A DNA stretch of 36,841 nucleotides, taken from contig SXKB01000150.1 of assembly GCA_005778215.1 (NCBI GenBank), forward strand, positions 1 through 36,841, in the 5' to 3' direction. A program made the translations under genes and the position numbers. The stretch comes from Actinomycetota bacterium (lineage in GTDB: Bacteria; Actinomycetota; Acidimicrobiia; Acidimicrobiales; Ilumatobacteraceae). Numbering within the stretch: the first letter of the stretch is position 1; every line of letters starts with the position of its first letter. This document shows, piece by piece, positions 3,005-35,991 of this stretch. Under the pieces are notes generated by a model. It ran no database searches. It was not told the origin of the DNA and saw only the letters and a program-made list of their open reading frames with translations.

Positions 3005-4591
3005 TCAGTGCGGCGTGTAGACCCCGAAGACCTCGCGAAGGGCATCGCTCACCTCGCCGAGAGTGGCGTTGGCGCGCAGCGCTTCCTTCATCGGGTACAG
3101 CACGTTCTGGGTGCCGCGAGCGGCTGCCTTCACGTCGTCGAGGCGTGCCTGCACCGCCGCGAGGTCGCGGTTGGCCTTGAACGCCGTGAGGCGCTCCTTC
3201 TGGCCGCGCTCGAGTTCGGGGTCGATGGGGAACACGTCGGGCTCGGGCTCGTTGTCGACCTTGAACTTGTTGACGCCCACGATGACGCGCTGGTCGTCGT
3301 CGATGCTCTTCGCGTACGAGTACGCGGCCTCCATGATCTCGTCCTGCTGGAAGCCGGCCTCGATGGCCTCCACCGCGCCGCCCATCTCGTCGATGCGCTG
3401 GATGTACTCCCATGCCAGCCGCTCCACCTCGTCGGTGAGCGTCTCGACGAAGTAGCTGCCGGCCAACGGGTCGGGCGTGTCGGCGATGCCGCTCTCGTAG
3501 CCGATGATCTGCTGGGTGCGCAGGGCGATGCGAGCGGCCCGCTCGGTGGGCAGGCTGAGCGCCTCGTCGTAACCGTTGGTGTGCAGGCTCTGCGTGCCAC
3601 CCATCACGGCCGCCATGCTCTGCACGGCGACGCGCACGATGTTGTTCTCGGGCTGCTGCGCGGTGAGGGTGCTGCCACCGGTCTGGGTGTGGAAGCGGAG
3701 CAGCTTGCTGCTCTCCTTCTTCGCACCGAAGCGCTCGCTCATCAGGCGGTACCAGATGCGGCGAGAGGCACGGAACTTCGCCACCTCTTCGAAGAAGTTG
3801 TTGTGCGCGTTCCAGAAGAAGCTGAGGCGCGGGGCGAAGTCGTCGACGTCGAGCCCGGCGGCGATGGCGGCCTCCACGTACGCGATGCCGTTCGCGATGG
3901 TGAACGCGATCTCCTGCACGGCGGTGCTGCCGGCTTCACGGATGTGGTAGCCGCTGATGGAGATGGTGTTCCATTTCGGCACGTGCTGGCTGCAGTACTC
4001 GAAGATGTTGGTGATGACCCGCATCGACGGCTTCGGCGGATACACGTAGGTGCCGCGTGCGATGTACTCCTTCAGCAGGTCGTTCTGGATGGTGCCGCTG
4101 ATGGCGCTGGCCGGCACGCCCTGCTCTTCGGCCACGAGCTCGTACATCAGCAGGAGGATGGCCGCCGTGGAGTTGATGGTCATCGACGTGCTCACCTTGT
4201 CGAGCGGCAGGCCGCCGAGCAACGTGCGCATGTCGTCGATGGAGTCGATGGCCACGCCCACCTTGCCCACTTCACCCTCGGCGCGTGGGTGGTCGCTGTC
4301 GTAGCCCATCTGCGTCGGCAGGTCGAAGGCGCAACTGAGGCCGGTCTGGCCGGCCTCCAGCAGGAACTTGAAGCGCTCGTTGGTGCTGGCCGCCGTGCCG
4401 AAGCCGGCGTACTGGCGCATCGTCCAGAGCTTGCCCCGGTACATCGTCGGGTACACACCGCGGGTGTACGGCGGGGTCCCCGGCGTGCCCAGCTGTGCGG
4501 CTGCGTCCCAGCCCGCCAGGTCGTCGGCGGTGTACAGGGGGCGCACCACGATGCCGCTGTCGGTGCGCGTGTCGTCGCTGTCGTTGCTCAC
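3005..4591 (-). CDS. Methylmalonyl-CoA mutase large (catalytic) subunit without fused B12-binding domain
   Basis: [92 protein letters not shown]; ends without DxHxxG cobalamin domain. Confidence 0.92.
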
Positions 4592-24986: not shown

Positions 24987-26642
24987 GTGTCGTCCCAGGT
25001 CACGCATCATGAACGCGTGGCCGACACCGCTCGTCGCACCTCACTCCGCTCGTTGGAGGAACTCGCCATTGCGGCGATCGACGTGCTGCCTCGCGCCAGC
25101 GTGATGGTGTTCGATCGCGATCTCCGCTACCGCATCGTGCGGGGCGGCGCCCTCCGCGAACAGGGGGTCCTGCCCGAGCAGTTGGAGGGCCACCTCGCCG
25201 TCGAAGCCCTCGGCGCGCAACGCTTCGCGTTCTACGAGCCGATGTACCGCGCTGCACTCGACGGCGACGTCACGTTGCGCGAGATGCCGTCACTGCGCGG
25301 CGAACAGACCTTCCTCGTCCGTGTCGGGCCACTGCGCGACGCCGACGGCGAGTTGCTCGGCGGCGTGGCGATCGCAGTGGACATCACCGAGCAGAAGCAG
25401 GCGGAGCGGTGGCTCACCACCTTGGTGGACGGGGCACCCGACGCGGCGGTGGTCGCCGACGACCACGGTGTCATCGTGCTGGTGAACGAGCAGACGGTGT
25501 CGATGTTCGGCTACACCGCCGATGAACTCGTCGGCAAGAACGTGGACGAACTCGTGCCGGCCGAGCTTCGTCCGAGGCACGCCGAGCTGCGCAACGAACT
25601 CACCGCGTCCGATGGTTGGTCACGCTCGACGATCGACGTGACGGCATGCCGCAAGGACAACACCACGTTCCCCGCAGAGGTGTCGTTGAGCGTGTTGCGG
25701 ATGGGCACGAGCCGATTGGTCTACGCAGCGGTGCGCGACATCTCGCAACGACTGCATCTGGAGGAGGAGTCGGCGTTCCTCGCCGCTGTGGTGCGCGAGA
25801 GCGACGACGCCATCATCGGAGGTTCCATCGACGGCCTGATCGTGAGTTGGAACCTCGGCGCCGAACGTCTCTACGGCTACCGCGCCGATGAGGCGATCGG
25901 TTGCTCCGCCACGATCCTGTCGCCTGACCCCGACTCCGACGAGATCCTCGACATCGTGCGGCGTGTGCGAGCCGGCGAACGGGTGAAGGTCACCGAGACG
26001 ACGCGACGGCGCAAGGACGGATCCATCGTCGAAGTGGCGTTGTCGGTGTCGCCGGTGTCCGATGCACGTGGACGAGTGGTGGGTCTCTCCACCATTGCCC
26101 GCGACATCAGCGAACAGCATCGTTACCAGCGCCTGTTGAAGGACCTCGCCGAGCACGACGCACTCACGGGTGCGTTGAACGTGCGACGGCTCGACGCTGC
26201 GCTGGCCGAGCAGACGGCGTTGTGCCGACGTCACGGCGAGCACGCCGTACTGCTCAGCCTGGACCTCGACGACTTCAAGCACATCAACGACACCTTCGGC
26301 CACCATGCGGGCGACGTCGCCCTGAAGGACCTCGTCGCCACCGTGACCCCCCGCCTCCGTTCGAGCGACGTGTTCGCACGCATCGGCGGCGACGAGTTCG
26401 TGGCGCTGCTGCGGCACACCGACCTTGCCGCCGGCAGAGCGATCGCCGAGGACCTGCGGAGCCGCGTCGCCGAAGTGACCGTCGAGGGATCGGAGGGCGA
26501 GCTGCACCTGGCCGTGAGCATCGGCGTGGTGGCCATCGACGACTGCGCCGATGGCGAGGAGGCTCGTTCGCTCGCCGACGCAGCGCTGTACGCGGAGAAG
26601 GCGTCCCGCCACGAGCTCCCGCGTCGTCCGCCCGTGCGTTGA
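24987..26642 (+). CDS. Multi-PAS diguanylate cyclase (GGDEF, no EAL)
   Basis: Repeated PAS segments (e.g. GAPDAAVVADDHGVIVLVNEQTVSMFGYTADELVGKN); HDALTGALNVRRLD...RSSDVFARIGGDEFVALLRH. Confidence 0.92.
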   Translation: MSSQVTHHERVADTARRTSLRSLEELAIAAIDVLPRASVMVFDRDLRYRIVRGGALREQGVLPEQLEGHLAVEALGAQRFAFYEPMYRAALDGDVTLREMPSLRGEQTFLVRVGPLRDADGELLGGVAIAVDITEQKQAERWLTTLVDGAPDAAVVADDHGVIVLVNEQTVSMFGYTADELVGKNVDELVPAELRPRHAELRNELTASDGWSRSTIDVTACRKDNTTFPAEVSLSVLRMGTSRLVYAAVRDISQRLHLEEESAFLAAVVRESDDAIIGGSIDGLIVSWNLGAERLYGYRADEAIGCSATILSPDPDSDEILDIVRRVRAGERVKVTETTRRRKDGSIVEVALSVSPVSDARGRVVGLSTIARDISEQHRYQRLLKDLAEHDALTGALNVRRLDAALAEQTALCRRHGEHAVLLSLDLDDFKHINDTFGHHAGDVALKDLVATVTPRLRSSDVFARIGGDEFVALLRHTDLAAGRAIAEDLRSRVAEVTVEGSEGELHLAVSIGVVAIDDCADGEEARSLADAALYAEKASRHELPRRPPVR

Positions 26643-26644
26643 CG

Positions 26645-29600
26645 TCAGCGGAAGTCGCGACTGGCGGTGCTGGCCGGCACCGCCAACGCGGTGAGTTCCT
26701 CGGCCACGATGTTGATGACACCTTCGGCGCGTTCGAGGCGGCCGCGCACCAGCAGTGCGGCGGCACCACGCGCCACCGTGCGATACCTCGCCCAGCACCC
26801 CTTCGACACCACCACGTTGATGAGCCCGGTCTCGTCCTCGAGGTTCATGAACGTGGTGCCCTGCGCGGTCATCGGCCGCTGCCGGTGGGTGACCACGCCC
26901 GCCACCAGCACCCGGGTGCGCGGCTCACAGTGCCACAGCCCGGCCGAGGTGACCACCCCGTGCGCGGCCAGTTGGTCGCGCAGGAACTGCGTGGGATGCC
27001 CGTTCGGCGCCACGCCGGTGGCCCACAGGTCGGCGACGGCAGTCTCCACCGGATCCATGCCCGGCAGCCGCGGTGCCTGCTGCCCCACCACCACCCCCTC
27101 CACCCGGTCGGGGCCCGACTGCACGGCGGCACCGACCGCCCACAGCGCGGCCCGACGTTCCAGCCCGAGGCATTCCTCGAACGCACCCGCGGTGGCCAAC
27201 GCTTCGAGCTGGGCGAGGTCGAGCTCGGGCACCCGGCGCACGAGATCCTCCAGCGATGCGTACGGGCGACCGGTTGCGATGCGCTCGGCGAGTTCCTTGC
27301 CGATGCCGCGCACGCTCTGCAGCCCCAGCCGCACCGCCACTCCGCCCACGCTGTCGTCGCACGGTTCGAGCGTGGCCGCGGCCAGGGATCCGTTGAGATC
27401 GGGTGAGCGCACCACCACCCCGTGCCGGCGCGCGTCCTGACACAGCGTGTGCGGGCTCCAGAACCCCATCGGCTGCGCGTTGAGCAGCGCTGCGCAGAAC
27501 GCCGCCGGTTCGTGGAACTTGATCCACGACGACGCGTACACCAGGTAGCTGAACGACACCGAGTGGCTCTCGGGGAAGCCGTAGTTCGCGAACGCCGCCA
27601 TCTTCACGAAGATCTCCTCGGCCACCTCGCCGGTGATGCCACGCTCGGCCATCCCGTCGAACAACCGCTGCTTCAACCGCTCCATCCGTGCCCGGCTGCG
27701 CTTCGACCCCATCGCCTGGCGCAACTGGTCGGCCTCGGCAGGTGTGAACCCGGCGACGTCGATGGCCATCTGCATCAACTGCTCCTGGAACAACGGCACA
27801 CCGAGGGTCTTGCCCAGGGAGTTCTCGAGCAGCGGATGCAGATAGGTGATCGGCTCCTGTCCGTTGCGGCGACGGATGTAGGGATGCACCGACCCGCCCT
27901 GAATGGGACCGGGGCGGATGAGCGCGACCTCCACCACCAGGTCGTAGAACCGGCGCGGCTTCAGCCGGGGCAGGGTGGCCATCTGCGCTCGCGACTCGAT
28001 CTGGAAGACGCCCCCCGTGTCGGCCCGGCAGAGCATGGCGTACACGTCGTCCTCCTGCGGGATGGTGGCGAGGTCGACCTCGTAGCCGCGGTGCTCGCGG
28101 ATGAGGTCGACCGCGTAGTGCAACGCGCTGAGCATGCCCAGGCCGAGCAGGTCGAACTTCACCAGGCCGGCGGCGGCGCAGTCGTCCTTGTCCCACTGCA
28201 GCACGCTGCGCCGATCCATGCGCCCCCACTCCACCGGGCACACCTCGATGACCGGCCGGTCGCAGATGACCATGCCGCCCGAGTGGATACCGAGGTGCCG
28301 TGGCGCGTCCTCGATCTCGGCCGCCAGTTCGAGCACGGCCTCGGGCCCGTCGTGGTCGGGCATCGACGCCGTGGTGGCCACCGTGCCCCACGCGTCCATC
28401 TGTTTGCTCCACGCATCCTGCTGGCCGGTGGCGTAACCGAGCGCCTTCGCCATGTCGCGCACCGACGAACGGGCTCGATACGTGATGACGTTGGCCACCT
28501 GCGCGGTGTGGTGGCGGCCGTAGCGCTCGTACACGTACTGGATGACCTCTTCACGACGATCGCTCTCGATGTCGAGGTCGATGTCGGGCGGGCCGTCGCG
28601 CTCGGTGGACAGGAACCGTTCGAACAGCAGCCCGAGCGACACGGCGTCGGCCTTGGTGATGCCGAGTGCGTAGCAGGCGGCGCTGTTGGCGGCGCTGCCC
28701 CGCCCCTGGCAGTAGATGTCGGCGCGGTTGCAGAACTCGACGATGTCCCACACGACGAGGAAGTAGCCGGCGAACCCGAGGTGCTCGATGACGTCGAGTT
28801 CGTGGTCGATGGTGCGCCATGCCCGCGCCCGCAGCGACAGGTCCTCGTGCGGCGCGGGCCGTTCGCCGTAGCGACGCCGACCGCCGGCCTCCACCAGCAC
28901 GCGTAGGTACTGCATCTCGCTGAGCGGGGCACCGTCGGGGCCGGGCGGGCACGGGTACGGCGGCAGGCTGGGCGCCACCAACGACAGGTCGAACGCCGCC
29001 GCCCGTCCCACTTCGGCCGCGAGTTCCACCACGCCGGGATAGCGGGCGAACCGCCGCGCCTGTTCGCCACCGCTGCGCAGGTGGGCACCGGCCGACGCCG
29101 GCAACCACGGATCGAGTTCGTCGAGACTGCGTCGCGCCCGCACCGCCGCCACCGCCGTGGCCAAGCGGCGCTGCGCCGGCGTGGCGTAGTGCACGTTGTT
29201 GGTGGCCACCACCCCCACGTCGTGCCGTGCCGCCAGTTCGGCCAGGGCGTCGTTGCGCACGGAGTCCATCGGGTGGCCGTGGTCCCACAACTCCACCAAC
29301 ACCCGGTCGCGGCCGAACAGGTCGACGAGGTGTCGCAACTCGCGCCCTGCTGCCGCGGGCCCTTCGGCCACCAGCGCGGCCGGCACCGCGCCCTTGCGGC
29401 AACCGGTGAGCACCCAGCCGTGACCGCGCACGGCATCGGCGATGTCGAGCAGCCCGAACTGCGGCACCCCCTTCTCGCCGGCGAGGTGGCCGAGGCTCAA
29501 CGCGCGGGCGAGCCGTGCGTACCCGGTGGGGCCGTCGGCCAGCACCACCAGGTGCTGGCCGTGGGGGTCGGGGGCGTGCGTGTCGGGCAGCATGCCGGTG

Positions 29601-30061
29601 GCCACCTGCTGCTGGGTGTCGGCCTCGGTGCGCGCTCGCCGGCCGGTGACACCCGGGGTGAGGGTGATCTCGGTGCCGAACACGGTGGGCAGCCCCACGG
29701 CTCGCGCCGCCTCGGCGAAGCGCACGATGCCGTAGAACCCGTCGTGGTCGGTGAGCGCCAACGCCTCCAGGCCCAGGCGTGCCGCTTCCTCCACCAACTG
29801 TTCGGGGTGCGACGCCCCGTCGAGGACCGAGAAGTTGCTGTGGCAGTGCAACTCGGCGTACGGCACGTGCACCGGGTCGGGCCGCCAGTGCGGCTGGGTG
29901 ATGTCGGGATCGGGCTCGTACGGCTGGCGTTTGCGCCCCCACGCCGGCCCGTCACCGCCGGCGTTCCACGACGGCGAACCGGGGGCGCGCCCGTCCTTGC
30001 CTCGTCCGGACAGAAGTCGTTCGACCTCCGACCACGGCATCGACGGATTGTTGAACCCCAT
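26645..30061 (-). CDS. dnaE2: Error-prone DNA polymerase III alpha-type (DnaE2)
   Basis: PHP domain [91 protein letters not shown]; 1138 aa; LexA-like box upstream. Confidence 0.95.
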   Translation of the reverse strand: [1138 protein letters not shown]

Positions 30062-30078: not shown

Positions 30079-30094
30079 TCGAACACCTGTTCGA
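30079..30094. promoter_or_regulatory. LexA/SOS box upstream of dnaE2
   Basis: TCGAACACCTGTTCGA, 7-bp perfect inverted arms, 18-33 nt upstream of the dnaE2 ATG. Confidence 0.85.
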
Positions 30095-30123: not shown

Positions 30124-31107
30124 TCAGGGGGTCCAGCGGTATCGCACGTCGGGGCAACGTTCCTCGTTGCCCTGGCCGTCGGTGAACTCCTCGGCCACGA
30201 ACCCGTGCCGCTCGTAGAAGCGCCGCGCGGCGCCGTTCGACTGGAACGCCCACAACTGCAACCCCTCGGCGCCACGCCGCTTGGCCAACTCCATGAACCG
30301 ATCGCCGAGGCCGCGGCCCATCCACGACGGGTCGAGATAGAGGTGCTCGATCCACGAACCGTCGCGGTCGTGCGACAGCACCAGGAACCCGGTGATCACG
30401 CCGTCGAGGTCGGCCACCCACATGTCGGTGTGCCCCACCACCTCGTCGGCCATCCACCGTCGCATCGAGGCCAGGTCGTGCACGATGGGCACCTCGGGCA
30501 GGCCGAACAGCCGTGACCGCACGTACACGTGCACGCATTCGCGGGACTCGTTGGTGCGGGCCGTGCGCAGGGAGGGCTCGCCGGGCTGCAGGGCACGCAG
30601 CGCACCCTCGAGGCCCGGTTCGGTGGTGGCGATGGCCTGGTGCCACTGGAACCAGCGCACCTCCTGGCTCTCGGCCGGCGGCGGGGTGGGCGGCACGTGC
30701 GGCGCTTCCACCAGGTAGCGCACGTCGAGATGGGTGTGCTTGCGCGGCCCCGGGTGCACGTCGACGTGCACGAGCACCGGCCCACCCTCGGGGAACGACA
30801 CCGGCAACCCGGTCTCCTCCCCCGCTTCACGCAGCGCGCCGTCCCACGGCTGTTCACCGTCGTCGACATGACCCCCCGGCTGCAGCCAGAGGCCGAGCCG
30901 TTTGTGCTGGTGGAGCAGCACACGACTGCGGTCCGTGGTCACGAGGATGGCCGAACCGGTGACGTGCACCGGGCTCGCGGTCTCCGAACAGGGCCGTTCG
31001 AGCCCCTCGTAGAGGCGCTGGAAGTCGACCATGGCCTGCCGTTCGCGGGCATCCACCGGGCGGCGGGCCGCCACGGCGGCGAGGAGGTCGAGACGGTCGT
31101 CGGGCAT
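30124..31107 (-). CDS. NUDIX hydrolase - GNAT acetyltransferase fusion
   Basis: Nudix box GHVDDGEQPWDGALREAGEETGL, then GNAT-like WIEHLYLDPSWMGRGLGDRFMELAKRRG...LWAFQSNGAARRFYERHGFV; start chosen at MPDDRLDLL. Confidence 0.85.
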   Translation of the reverse strand: MPDDRLDLLAAVAARRPVDARERQAMVDFQRLYEGLERPCSETASPVHVTGSAILVTTDRSRVLLHQHKRLGLWLQPGGHVDDGEQPWDGALREAGEETGLPVSFPEGGPVLVHVDVHPGPRKHTHLDVRYLVEAPHVPPTPPPAESQEVRWFQWHQAIATTEPGLEGALRALQPGEPSLRTARTNESRECVHVYVRSRLFGLPEVPIVHDLASMRRWMADEVVGHTDMWVADLDGVITGFLVLSHDRDGSWIEHLYLDPSWMGRGLGDRFMELAKRRGAEGLQLWAFQSNGAARRFYERHGFVAEEFTDGQGNEERCPDVRYRWTP

Positions 31108-31273
31108 CACCCCACCGTAGGCCGTGTGTCGTCGACCCACGTCAGTGATCGTGCACGACATCGTCAAAATCACCGCTTCAGTCCCCTTCGGAACGCGCCG
31201 ATAGTGACTTCGAACGGTGCAGTTCCGGCAAACCGGCCGGGCTGGAGCACCCCGAGGCGGAAGAACTGCAACT

Positions 31274-32053
31274 ATGGAACCCGACGCACAACTCGCTCCC
31301 CGAGTGCTGCTGGCCGTGGGCGACCCGAACCTTCGGCGCATCGCCTCCTCTGCCCTGCGTTCACGTGGTTACTCCGTGAGCGCCACCACCGAGGAAGACG
31401 CTGCACTGACCCTCGCCCGCTCGTTCTCCCCCGACGTGGTGATGGTCGACCTCGAACTGCCCAGCCCCGAAGGCGGCAACCTGTTCGACACGATGCGCGC
31501 CCTCACCGACGCCTACATCGTCGGCATTGCATCCCCCGATGCCGACAATGCCCGCATCCGCGCCCTGCGCGCCGGCGCCGACGACGTGGTGTCCGCCGAC
31601 CTCAACCCCGACGAGCTCGCCGCCCGTTGCCAGGCGCTGCTGCGCCGGCCGCGCCAACTGCACGCCCGCTGGGATCCGATGCAGGCCTCGGTCATCAGCC
31701 TCGGTCCGCTCACGGTGGACGTGGGCCGCAAGGAGATCCGCGTGCACGACGCCGACGTGCCGGTCACGCGCATCGAGTTCGCGCTGTTCGAGCAGCTCTG
31801 CCGCCGTCCTGCCGAGGTGTGCTCGCGCACCGAGCTGCTGGAAGAGGTGTGGGGCCCGAACTGGGTGGGCGACACCCATGTGGTCGACGTGCACCTCAGC
31901 AACCTGCGCCGCAAGCTGCAGCAGCGGGCGCCCGAGCTGCGTTTCATCCACACCGTGCGCGGCGTGGGCTTCCGTCTCAGCAACGATCTGTTGCGTGCCG
32001 CCGAGCACGATCACGATCACGAGGACGACGGCCACGAGCTGATCTCGGCCTGA
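31274..32053 (+). CDS. OmpR/PhoB-family response regulator, atypical receiver, His/Asp-rich C-terminus
   Basis: Receiver with VVMVDLELPSPEGG; wHTH TRIEFALFEQLCRRPAEVCSRTELLEEVWGPNWVGDTHVVDVHLSNLRRKL...HTVRGVGFRL; tail EHDHDHEDDGHE. Confidence 0.88.
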   Translation: MEPDAQLAPRVLLAVGDPNLRRIASSALRSRGYSVSATTEEDAALTLARSFSPDVVMVDLELPSPEGGNLFDTMRALTDAYIVGIASPDADNARIRALRAGADDVVSADLNPDELAARCQALLRRPRQLHARWDPMQASVISLGPLTVDVGRKEIRVHDADVPVTRIEFALFEQLCRRPAEVCSRTELLEEVWGPNWVGDTHVVDVHLSNLRRKLQQRAPELRFIHTVRGVGFRLSNDLLRAAEHDHDHEDDGHELISA

Positions 32054-32080: not shown

Positions 32081-32200
32081 GACCCGTTTCGGACCCACGG
32101 GTGTGAAACCCGTCAGCGATGACGGGAAACGGACCCGTGGGTGGGGAACCCGTCAGGGATGTCGGGAAACGGACCCGACGTGTGGGCGGGTGCGGGTCAG
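32081..32200. repeat. About 40-bp tandem repeat (2 full diverged units plus a partial third) containing nested inverted repeats
   Basis: Units at 32081-32120, 32121-32160, 32161-32200; units 1 and 2 share about 30/40 positions; core palindrome CCCACGGGT-N6-CCCGTCA-GCGA-TGACGGG-N6-ACCCGTGGG at 32094-32141. Confidence 0.8.
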
Positions 32201-33801
32201 CGGTACTCGGCGGTGAGCCACCAGCGGCCGCGCTCGACGCCCACCAGCAGCAGTCGCCCCGATCGGGTGAGCAGTTGGAAACGGGCGGTGCGCCGCGCTC
32301 GGGCAGGGTCCCACCAGCGTTCGTCGACGGGCCACGGCCCGGCCCACGACTGCACCGCCTCCGCCGAGCCGCCCATCTGCACGGTGACGGGTGCGGCCGA
32401 CACCGTGCCGCGACCGCTGACCGCGACCGCGGCGCCCGCGGCGTCGAGCACCTCGATGGCCCGCGCCGGCGCGTGCACCACCGCGGGCGACGGTGCCGGC
32501 AGGCTGCCGGGCCACGGCGTGCCACGGTCGGCGAGCCGCTCGGCCGGATCGACAAGGTCGGCCGTGGCCGCCGCCACCCAACGATGCGAGTCGTGCGGCT
32601 GGCGACCGCCGTGCACCGCCGGCACCAGCACCTGCTGCTCCCCCGCCAGCGCCACCAACCGGGCCACGGCGCGCACCGCCCAGTCGTCGGCCTGTGTGCG
32701 GCCGCCCCACAGGCCGAGTTGCACCCCGTCGTCGCCGCGCACCTCCACCGGGTCGAGGCGCAGCAACGCCACCCCGGCGGTGAGATCGTCGAGTTGCACC
32801 CACGCGTCGAGTTGCCACCGCACCCGTTCGACCATCGCCGCCACGCTGAGCCCGCTGCTGCGATGCCAGTGCCGTTCGGTGCGTTCGCCGTGCTCGGTCT
32901 CGGCCACCACCTGCAATCGGGTGCACACCCGGCCGTCGGCGGCCAGTGCGCCCACCAGTTCCTCGGCCAGTTGCCGGGCGACGAACACGAGCGCATCGGT
33001 GTGCTGCACCGGCGGTTCGAACACCCGCTGCGCGTGCAGGCCGCTGGGCGGGTCGTGCGTGCCGGGCAGGCGATCGTCGCCGCCGGCGGCGATGCGGTGG
33101 GCGAACGCACCGAGTGGGCCGAAACGGGCCGTCACATCGGCGGCCGGGAGCGCCGCAAGGGCGCCGAGCTGGTGCAGCCCGAGGCGGTGCAGCAGATGGA
33201 CGAAGTCGGCCGGCACGCCGGCCACCTCGGTGAGCAACGACACGGGCAGCCCGCGGAGGAACTCGGCCGTCGCAGCGCCCCCGGCCGACACCACGGCGGG
33301 CGCGCCGGCCGCAGCGGCGCGGCGGGCGGCGATACCGGCAGCGAACCGACCGTCGGCCACGCCCATGCCGAGCGAGCCGACGGCCGCCAGTGACCGGCCC
33401 ATGGCCTCGGCGGCCGTGGCCGTCACCTTCGCCGCCATCGACGCCTCGCCACCGAAGTAGCGGGCCGGACCGCGAGCCACGAACGTGAGCGTGCCGGGCT
33501 CGGTGACCTCCACCCGCGGCACTATCGCCCCCACGGCCCGCACCACCTGTTCGAAGGCCCGAGCGTCGCGAGCCGGGTCGTGTGGCTCGATGCGCACGTG
33601 CGGGCACCGCGACTGGGCGTCACGCCGGCGCTGACCGAGCGCCACCCCGTCGGCGACCGCCGCCAACGAATGCGCGACCACGCGGTTGGCGTGCACCACG
33701 GCGACCGGCTCGTCGGCGGCGGCATCGGCCACCACCACCGGCCAGTGCGGACACCACAGCACCCCCAGCCGCGGCACGTCGGGACGAGCGACGCGAGCCA
33801 C
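32197..33801 (-). CDS. imuB: ImuB-like (catalytically degenerate Y-family) mutasome protein
   Basis: LGVLWCPHWPVVVADAAADEPVAVVHANRVVAHSLAAVADGVALGQRRRDAQSRCPHV; PARYFGGEASMAAKV; C-terminal beta-clamp-like QLGLWGG. Confidence 0.88.
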   Translation of the reverse strand: MARVARPDVPRLGVLWCPHWPVVVADAAADEPVAVVHANRVVAHSLAAVADGVALGQRRRDAQSRCPHVRIEPHDPARDARAFEQVVRAVGAIVPRVEVTEPGTLTFVARGPARYFGGEASMAAKVTATAAEAMGRSLAAVGSLGMGVADGRFAAGIAARRAAAAGAPAVVSAGGAATAEFLRGLPVSLLTEVAGVPADFVHLLHRLGLHQLGALAALPAADVTARFGPLGAFAHRIAAGGDDRLPGTHDPPSGLHAQRVFEPPVQHTDALVFVARQLAEELVGALAADGRVCTRLQVVAETEHGERTERHWHRSSGLSVAAMVERVRWQLDAWVQLDDLTAGVALLRLDPVEVRGDDGVQLGLWGGRTQADDWAVRAVARLVALAGEQQVLVPAVHGGRQPHDSHRWVAAATADLVDPAERLADRGTPWPGSLPAPSPAVVHAPARAIEVLDAAGAAVAVSGRGTVSAAPVTVQMGGSAEAVQSWAGPWPVDERWWDPARARRTARFQLLTRSGRLLLVGVERGRWWLTAEYR

Positions 33802-33804
33802 GGC

Positions 33805-34545
33805 TCACCCGGTGCGCCGCAACGGCGTCACCATGCCGTCGACGGTGGGTTCACATGCACGCAGTTGGCCATCGACGGCCGGGAGCCAGCAGTCGAGCCG
33901 CCGTTCCTGCGGCACCCGCCGACCCGTCAGAGCGAGCTGCGCACGGCGAGCCTGCGCCACCCCGTGCCCGTCGCCCAGGCCCACCCAGGTGGCTGCCGCG
34001 CATTCGAACCGCAGGTCGGCACCGAACACCGGGGCCCCCACCGTGACGGCCATGGCGCCACGCGCCTGCAGGCGCGCCACCAGACGGCGGGCGGTGGCCG
34101 GGCGCACCTGTTGAGTGCCGGGGCCGAGCAGCACCACGTCGAACCCATCGATGCATGCGGCGAGCAGGTCGCCCCACACCTCGTCGTCGAACGGCTGCAC
34201 AGCGCCGTCGGCGTCGACCGGTTCGGTGACGGCCACCAGCCGTTCGAGCACCACGCCGGCCTCGGCCGCGGCGGCGAGCCCCAGCGACGGCATGCCGGCC
34301 ACGGCCACCCATGCCCCCTGTTGCGACGGGCCGGCGGCCACGGCCAGTGCGAGGGTGACGGCGGCGGCGCCGACGCATCCCACGACGCTGCCGCGCTGCA
34401 CCGCGCACTGGGGCACCAGCGGGGCGAAGACCGGCAGCAACGGCAGCGTGCGTGCCTGCGCCGCCGTGGCCGACCCTGCCCGGGTGACGAGCCCACGGCC
34501 GGCGAGGTCGGCGAGTTGCGTGGGGTTCGTCACTCGTGCCGCCAT
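33805..34545 (-). CDS. ImuA'-like RecA-related mutasome protein
   Basis: Immediately upstream of and cotranscribable with imuB; RecA-like core GSVVGCVGAAAVTLALAVAA...GAWVAVAGMPSLGLAAAAEAGVVLERLVAVTEP; SOS box upstream. Confidence 0.75.
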   Translation of the reverse strand: MAARVTNPTQLADLAGRGLVTRAGSATAAQARTLPLLPVFAPLVPQCAVQRGSVVGCVGAAAVTLALAVAAGPSQQGAWVAVAGMPSLGLAAAAEAGVVLERLVAVTEPVDADGAVQPFDDEVWGDLLAACIDGFDVVLLGPGTQQVRPATARRLVARLQARGAMAVTVGAPVFGADLRFECAAATWVGLGDGHGVAQARRAQLALTGRRVPQERRLDCWLPAVDGQLRACEPTVDGMVTPLRRTG

Positions 34546-34557
34546 GTCGCCACTGTA

Positions 34558-34573
34558 TCGAACAGGTGTTCGC
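34558..34573. promoter_or_regulatory. LexA/SOS box upstream of imuA'-imuB
   Basis: TCGAACAGGTGTTCGC, 15 of 16 identical to the reverse complement of the dnaE2 box, 13-28 nt upstream of the imuA' start. Confidence 0.8.
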
Positions 34574-34619: not shown

Positions 34620-35477
34620 TCAGGCGCCGGCGCGAGGAGTGAGCGAGTCGCCCGAGGCCAACTGCTCGGCGAACTCCCGAGCCGAGCCGGCGAAGTGCGT
34701 GGCACCCAGCGCCAAGGCGTGCTCGCGCCCTTCGACCGCGTTGCCGCCCACCACGATGGACACCCCCGGCACGGCCTCACGCAGCGCAGCACACAGGGCA
34801 GGGGCCGCTTCGGCGCCTTCCGGCGAACTGATCGACACGCCGATCGCTGCCAGGCCCGGCGACAGCAGTGCGGCGGACACGAACGATTCGGTGGGCATGT
34901 CGGCCCCGAGGTCGGAGACCTCCCAGCCCTCGCCGCGCAGCAGATCGGCCAGCATCGACGTCGGCAGCGAATGCCGCTCGCCGGACGGTGAACCGATGAG
35001 CACGTGACCTCGCGTGCGACCACGACGGGCGAAGCGTGGCCCGAGTCGACCGATGAGTCGCTGGGCGATGCCCGTGGCGCGGTGCTCCACGGCGATGTCG
35101 AGTTCGCCCGCGGCCCACCGCTCACCGATGCGGCGCATCGCCGGAGTGATGACGTCGAGGTAGATCTCGTCGAGGTCGGCACCCGCAGCCAGGGCCGCTT
35201 CCACCACGCCCCACGCGCCGGCACTGTCACCGGCGACGAGGCGCGACTCCAGCCGCGACGCCCACGGAGCACGTCGCTTCGGCTGCTCGGTGGAGGCTGC
35301 CGCTGACGCACCGTCGCGGAACGCCTGCAGGTCGGCCTGGGTGACGTGCCACGAACCGCCCACCTTCACTGCGGGCAGCACACCGAGCCGCACGTAGCGG
35401 TACGCCGTCATGTAGTGCACGCCGAGCAGCTCGGCGGCCTCGTGCAAGGTGAGATCGGTGTCGCTCACTGAGACCAA
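34620..35477 (-). CDS. HTH (excisionase/HTH_17-type) plus B12-binding-domain regulator, CarH/LitR-like architecture
   Basis: LTLHEAAELLGVHYMTAYRYVRLGVLPAVKVGGSWHVTQADLQAFRDG; helical domain with W-AAGELDIAV-EH (Wx9EH); B12-domain core VLIGSPSGERHSLPTSMLADLLRGEGWEVSDLGADMPTESF. The GTG at MSDTDLTLHE is an alternative start. Confidence 0.85.
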   Translation of the reverse strand: MVSVSDTDLTLHEAAELLGVHYMTAYRYVRLGVLPAVKVGGSWHVTQADLQAFRDGASAAASTEQPKRRAPWASRLESRLVAGDSAGAWGVVEAALAAGADLDEIYLDVITPAMRRIGERWAAGELDIAVEHRATGIAQRLIGRLGPRFARRGRTRGHVLIGSPSGERHSLPTSMLADLLRGEGWEVSDLGADMPTESFVSAALLSPGLAAIGVSISSPEGAEAAPALCAALREAVPGVSIVVGGNAVEGREHALALGATHFAGSAREFAEQLASGDSLTPRAGA

Positions 35478-35496
35478 CGTAGGTTCGCCGGGTCAC

Positions 35497-35513
35497 CGCT
35501 GCGTAACGCAGCG
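35497..35513. promoter_or_regulatory. Perfect palindrome upstream of the B12-domain regulator gene (candidate operator)
   Basis: CGCTGCG-TAA-CGCAGCG, 7-bp arms, 20-36 nt upstream of the longest start. Confidence 0.5.
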
Positions 35514-35532: not shown

Positions 35533-35991
35533 TCAGTGGCTGGCCTTCCACTTCGCGAGGGCCGCACGGCTGCGCTCGACCAGCACGGCGGGCACGCGAC
35601 GCAGGTACTCGGCCTCGGCCGGGCTGGCGCCGTCGGCCACCGCAGCAGCGCCCGAGTCGGCGGCCGCTTCGGGCACCAGGTCCTCGAACGTCGGCAGCTC
35701 CATGCCCGGCTTCCAGTACTGGTACAGGTCGCGCACCACGTCGTCGAGGCCCTCGGCCGTGTAGCCCTTCGCCACGTCGACCGTGATGATGTTGCCGAAC
35801 ACGTGCACGTTGGCCACCTGGCCGGTCTCGAGCAGACGGCGGGCCAGCGTGGCCGCCGGGCGGTTGCCCGTGGCCTGCGCCACCGACGAGAACTCCTCGT
35901 GGCCCATGCCCGTGAGGTTGCGGTTGGCTTCGTAGCGCACCACACCCTTGGTACGACTCGGCTTGGCGACGACGGCGATCTGCTGACCCAT
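35533..35991 (-). CDS. Protein with NifU/Nfu N-terminal-like domain
   Basis: MGQQIAVVAKPSRTKGVVRYEANRNLTGMGHEEFSSVAQATGNRPAATLARRLLETGQVANVHVFGNIITVDV resembles Nfu N-terminal pattern. Confidence 0.55.
   Translation of the reverse strand: MGQQIAVVAKPSRTKGVVRYEANRNLTGMGHEEFSSVAQATGNRPAATLARRLLETGQVANVHVFGNIITVDVAKGYTAEGLDDVVRDLYQYWKPGMELPTFEDLVPEAAADSGAAAVADGASPAEAEYLRRVPAVLVERSRAALAKWKASH

Follow-up and report, generated by a model that had tools for sequence, protein, structure and literature searches.

Regulator gene and domain architecture

The window, meaning the whole stretch of 36,841 nucleotides that was analysed, belongs to an Acidimicrobiia MAG, and the open reading frame 34620-35477 (minus strand) within it is a genuine gene. 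Pfam domains support the gene as drawn by an earlier sequence-only reading. The start needs correction: since TTG 35477 falls within the −10 of what appears to be a leaderless promoter, GTG 35468 is the likelier start, which gives a protein of 282 aa.

34620..35468, minus strand: B12-binding HTH_17 regulator gene, GTG start at 35468, 282 aa
35313..35453, minus strand: HTH_17/excisionase-type DNA-binding domain, residues 9-55 (Pfam, 45.3 bits, cutoff 27)
35043..35258, minus strand: B12-binding_2 helical cap domain, residues 74-145 (59.2 bits), with GxxW (G118-W121) and EH (131-132)
34662..35006, minus strand: Rossmann B12-binding domain, residues 158-272 (51.5 bits), with GxxH (H169) and GxxxP (G191-P195)

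All three domain scores exceed the Pfam cutoffs, and the HTH also scores above the cutoff of the NCBIfam excisionase-type model TIGR01764. No MerR family in Pfam or NCBIfam matches the regulator at E ≤ 0.001, only HTH_17 and excise being reported, which bears out the excisionase-type N-terminus proposed from sequence.

Cobalamin-domain signature and ligand residues

According to an alignment of 81 proteins including the window's regulator, W121, E131, H132, H169, G118, G191, and P195 are invariant (81/81), and G166 is kept in 78 of them. The regulator thereby carries all four motifs of the SignatureFinder light-responsive cobalamin domain (CBD) signature, namely GxxW (G118xxW121), EH (E131H132), GxxH (G166xxH169), and GxxxP (G191xxxP195). 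This signature was checked experimentally on four proteins plus a negative control and is present in 1561 of 128,000 CBDs (PMC11796333). Such invariance means that W121, E131, H132, and H169 are not there by chance. The strings W121-x9-E131-H132 and E167-R168-H169-S-L-P are present just as previously described, and the loss of Wx9EH in orthologs, named beforehand as the outcome that would count against the reading, is seen in none of the 81 proteins. Position 172, the final Gly of ExHxxG, is Pro, Ala, Val, or Ser throughout the alignment and never Gly, and H169 is the predicted lower axial ligand. On the DNA-binding side, H21-Y22-M23-T24 is invariant, as is the whole recognition-helix stretch HYMT(A/V)YRY apart from its A/V position.

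The part of the earlier claim that did not hold is the identification of the EH histidine as the light-relevant one. In CarH, it is His132, located next to the Trp (W+1), that moves onto the cobalt once light has acted (PMC10442372, PMC11796333), so the EH histidine is a signature residue rather than the light-state ligand. The W+1 position is occupied by Ala122 in the regulator and mostly by Ala, Glu, or Ser in homologues, with His in 6 of 81; in the tree, the rhodopsin-linked homologues retain His after Trp. CtMerR, SasPcob, and AbDPcob have Arg, Gln, and Tyr there, respectively, and all three still respond to light (PMC11796333). As for TtCarH, its H132A variant stays mostly tetrameric even in light (PMC10442372), and therefore the output of the Ala-bearing regulator may differ.

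Predicted structure and nearest solved relatives

When a profile of 37 homologues was searched against solved chains, the best matches were SasPcob (4.5e-38), CtMerR (2e-29), and AbDPcob (5.9e-28), followed by methionine synthase, with CarH at 1.4e-18. By sequence, the closest solved cobalamin domains are thus verified green-light receptors, CarH ranking lower. The AlphaFold model of the regulator has a mean pLDDT of 92 and a pTM of 0.74, the latter value making the arrangement of HTH and CBD uncertain; its best Foldseek matches are SasPcob, CtMerR, and full-length CarH.

The same searches bear on whether the protein might be an ordinary corrinoid carrier or an excisionase. Methionine synthase (MetH) and methyltransferase corrinoid proteins do match the CBD, but light-responsive CBDs score best, the window's locus has no methyltransferase neighbour, and the HTH is fused to the CBD throughout the regulator family, which together make this explanation highly improbable.

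Promoter of the regulator gene

Two promoter features precede the gene.

35500..35507, minus strand: GTTACGCA, conserved −35-region element (putative operator/−35), inside the inverted repeat CGCTGCGTTACGCAGCG (35513-35497)
35476..35481, minus strand: TACGTT, predicted −10 (leaderless), separated from the element by 18 bp and from the GTG by 7 nt

When 60 non-redundant upstream regions were searched for motifs by EM, GC-C-GTCACGCA emerged in ~60% of them, far more often than in shuffled sequences, and a −10-like TANNNT lies 5-8 nt before the start at 41 of 79 loci (4.9 in shuffles). Of the 25 cases scored, 24 have 18 bp between element and −10. The composite GTYACGCA-N18-TANNNT occurs once in the source genome, at the regulator gene, and has 22 matches in 100 relatives, 8 of which are the regulator promoter (G000, G002, G005, G007, G013, G026, G047, and G053). 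Among the remaining matches no common gene recurs except in the congeneric pair G045/G060, and the exact composite is missing from many family members that have the regulator. Because the pattern was derived from these very promoters, only its absence elsewhere counts as independent evidence. Upstream regions also show a 10-bp periodicity (17 lags tested, mononucleotide shuffles as control), with z reaching 4.8 at lag 10 and 5.9 at lag 20 for nine distant members, and 4.5 at lag 10 for the imu set, the signal being weak in any single sequence. In CarH, the operator consists of 11-bp repeats over the −35 (PMC9304148).

Two shorter strings were rejected. Matches to GCRCRRTYACGCA also occur in genomes without the regulator, and the same is true for GCTGMGTTACGCA with 1 mismatch, which is no more frequent than in the reversed control. 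Such short motifs are non-specific and also fit common codons (GTG ATC GTG).

GTYACGCA might instead simply serve an alternative sigma factor as its −35, in which case the regulator gene need not be autoregulated. The fixed 18-bp spacing and the position of some homologues directly after a sigma-70 gene would suit this possibility, which we regard as doubtful though deserving consideration: the composite stands at no other gene in the source genome and at no common gene in relatives save the one congeneric pair, and the 10-bp periodicity also argues for an operator. At L034, L058, L073, and L082 the homologue lies directly 3′ of a sigma-70 gene whose product comprises regions 1.2-4 (by Pfam for L058, by similarity for the others).

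Homologues, gene neighbourhoods, and genome background

A scan of bacterial genome contigs retained 80 related loci. Actinobacterial MAGs account for nearly all of these, and many belong to the Ilumatobacteraceae or Acidimicrobiaceae. The imuA′-adjacent proteins form one clade in the tree (72 rows, support 81/98), except for the short-contig row L141. Outside this clade, HYQT(A/V)YRW proteins are encoded divergently from Bac_rhodopsin genes at 4 loci, in G024, G029, G034, and G039. The L132 homologue is divergent from an adjoining photolyase-related gene, and in L034 and L082 such a gene lies ~2.5-3 kb from the homologue. At L215:7034-11411, the homologue and an IDI-2-like gene (so read by eye; Pfam reports FMN_dh) point away from each other, and genes for phytoene synthase and a CrtI-like oxidoreductase come next. 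Several other homologues have no light-related neighbour, e.g., L204 beside a phosphofructokinase-like gene (by eye).

Some further observations concern the family as a whole. HTH_17-CBD paralogues at L131, L137, L138, and L139, divergent from microbial rhodopsin genes, have ~10-bp intergenic repeats. The regulator orthologues G057:C1:28793-29611 and G023:C26:28191-29006 each contain one in-frame stop, possibly decay or an assembly error. Open reading frames of larger proteins, sometimes paired, on G010:C97, G010:C157, G014:C26, and G009:C463 have an HTH 40-54% identical to that of the regulator.

As for the cofactor, the window's genome encodes a CobA-type adenosyltransferase, which would supply AdoCbl, and the window itself holds methylmalonyl-CoA mutase, an AdoCbl enzyme (3005-4591, minus strand); a search of the genus yielded no adenosyltransferase of the PduO type. 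Neither phytoene synthase nor rhodopsin is detectable in the source genome, which is 75% complete. In family genomes ≥90% complete, with presence sets read by hand, the DPRP photolyase-related gene occurs in 24 of 29 genomes with any HTH-CBD homologue versus 4 of 16 without (uncorrected for phylogeny). No shared motif was found upstream of the DPRP genes, so this co-occurrence comes without operator support.

These data also bear on the idea of a sensor of AdoCbl level, which would respond to the cofactor itself, with light sensitivity as a by-product. The source organism makes and uses AdoCbl, the regulator occurs in genomes that have neither rhodopsin nor phytoene synthase, some homologues lack a light-gene neighbour, and Ala replaces His132. 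However, the invariant adenosyl-cap residues are those that define light-responsive CBDs, other homologues neighbour rhodopsin, photolyase-related, and carotenoid genes, and the co-occurrence with the photolyase-related gene points the same way, which leaves a pure metabolite sensor unlikely.

Mutasome locus

The regulator gene lies between a conserved gene of its own strand and the mutasome genes.

35533..35991, minus strand: conserved 152-aa gene upstream of the regulator, no Pfam/NCBIfam match
34559..34572, unstranded: LexA box (palindromic) preceding imuA′, past the 3′ end of the regulator gene
33805..34545, minus strand: imuA′ (NF058630, above cutoff)
32197..33801, minus strand: imuB, Y-family polymerase-like (IMS domain)
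30124..31341, minus strand: NUDIX + GNAT protein between imuB and dnaE2 (domain matches)
30080..30093, unstranded: LexA box before dnaE2
26645..30061, minus strand: dnaE2 error-prone polymerase (PRK05672, 1434.7 bits)

A PAS-GGDEF protein adjoins dnaE2 (24987-26642, plus strand). The LexA boxes before imuA′ and dnaE2 represent 2 matches against 0.03 expected.

Light-gated read-through from the regulator's own promoter, or direct binding, could in principle add a light input to imuA′B. Regulator and mutasome adjoin on the same strand at all imu-clade loci whose flank is long enough, the median gap to imuA′ being 51 bp (46 loci) with no terminator-like site between the two. However, a LexA box precedes imuA′ in 55 of 63 loci and the regulator in none of the 63, the promoter element of the regulator is almost never present upstream of imuA′, and an inserted gene parts the two in 15 loci. 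In the congeners G001, G003, G004, and G009, which lack the regulator, the flanking genes are directly adjacent and the mutasome is intact at the same site. All family genomes ≥90% complete have ImuB, whether or not they carry the regulator. In addition, the upstream neighbour is conserved to a similar degree, and therefore the collinearity may be passive. In summary, the adjacency is real yet unexplained, no sign was found that the regulator controls the mutasome genes, and such control seems rather unlikely. The position upstream of imuA′, imuB, and dnaE2 was thus read correctly from sequence, whereas the suggested UV/SOS link is weak, imuA′ having its own LexA box and the regulator none. 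At L024, L031, L033, L037, L041, L049, L053, and L060, the gene between regulator and imuA′ is a ~450-aa SGETAP-motif gene on the other strand.

Judged by titles and abstracts, searches within an open-access library turned up no paper that links ImuB/DnaE2 to cobalamin or a photoreceptor, or CarH to rhodopsin. It is a speculative and improbable scenario that light opens an autorepressed regulator promoter and read-through over the LexA-controlled imuA′B primes translesion mutagenesis in freshwater actinobacteria.

Proposed mechanism and significance

Domain architecture, the invariant signature, the fold prediction, the conserved promoter element, and the light-gene context of homologues all support an AdoCbl-dependent light-sensing transcription regulator, similar to CarH/CtMerR with HTH_17 replacing MerR. 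We consider this reading, also put forward from sequence alone, probably correct; in its favour are the signature, the relatedness to green-light receptors, the AlphaFold fold match, and the rhodopsin, photolyase-related, and carotenoid neighbours.

We infer that in the dark AdoCbl would be bound and held by the lower ligand His169, its adenosyl group capped by Trp121, Glu131, and His132. The cofactor would drive assembly, which would bring several HTH domains together on a short operator that overlaps the −35 in the regulator's own leaderless promoter. This promoter would thereby be repressed, i.e., the gene would be autoregulated. Green or blue light would then break the Co-C bond by photolysis, the change in oligomeric state would loosen the assembly, and the regulator promoter would open. 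Because Ala occupies the CarH His132 position, the expected light state, like that of CtMerR, is aquo/hydroxocobalamin that lacks bis-His ligation.

What is new here is the HTH_17 variant of a B12 light regulator, its promoter element, and the rhodopsin-linked paralogues with 10-bp repeats. Verified B12 photoreception would thereby extend to a family built on HTH_17 that is common in Acidimicrobiia, with lake metagenomes as the source of many members. The paralogues divergent from rhodopsin genes are a candidate switch for rhodopsin, photolyase-related, and carotenoid genes in these bacteria. Sequence supports light sensing and probable self-control, but not mutasome control. The natural Ala/Glu/Ser/His variation at the bis-His position offers a way to probe the role of that ligand.

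Comparison with known systems

Among the photocobilins SasPcob and AbDPcob (PDB 8J2W/8J2Y), SasPcob is the nearest solved CBD in sequence, and AbDPcob comes from an Acidimicrobiaceae bacterium. The regulator, however, carries an HTH instead of the biliverdin-binding domain, for which it has no room since the protein ends after the CBD. BldC of Streptomyces can be likened by description, since its small MerR-like HTH recognizes direct repeats in head-to-tail order (PMC5859096), but it has no cobalamin domain.

CtMerR of Chloracidobacterium thermophilum (PDB 8JBS/8JBT), which reportedly goes from tetramer to monomer in light (PMC11796333), shares with the regulator a DNA-binding domain plus a light-responsive CBD with the same four motifs, and neither has His at the His132 position (Arg in CtMerR, Ala in the regulator). 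The sequence match (2e-29), however, covers the CBD alone, and the CtMerR N-terminus is described as MerR-type.

Shared with CarH/LitR (Thermus CarH, PDB 5C8D/E/F) are the order of DNA-binding domain, cap, and Rossmann domain, Wx9EH, the predicted axial His, an element over the −35, and, as far as the model tells, the fold. In contrast, CarH has a MerR domain where the regulator has HTH_17, His132 where it has Ala122, and 11-bp repeats where it has 10-bp periodicity. The NCBIfam CarH model NF052513 gives 56.7 bits against a cutoff of 400, over residues 73-269 (the CBD part) only. By these three marks, i.e., no MerR domain, a score below cutoff, and Ala for His132, the regulator is not a CarH equivalog; while not a member of the CarH family by test, it is in function probably a CarH-like B12 light regulator.
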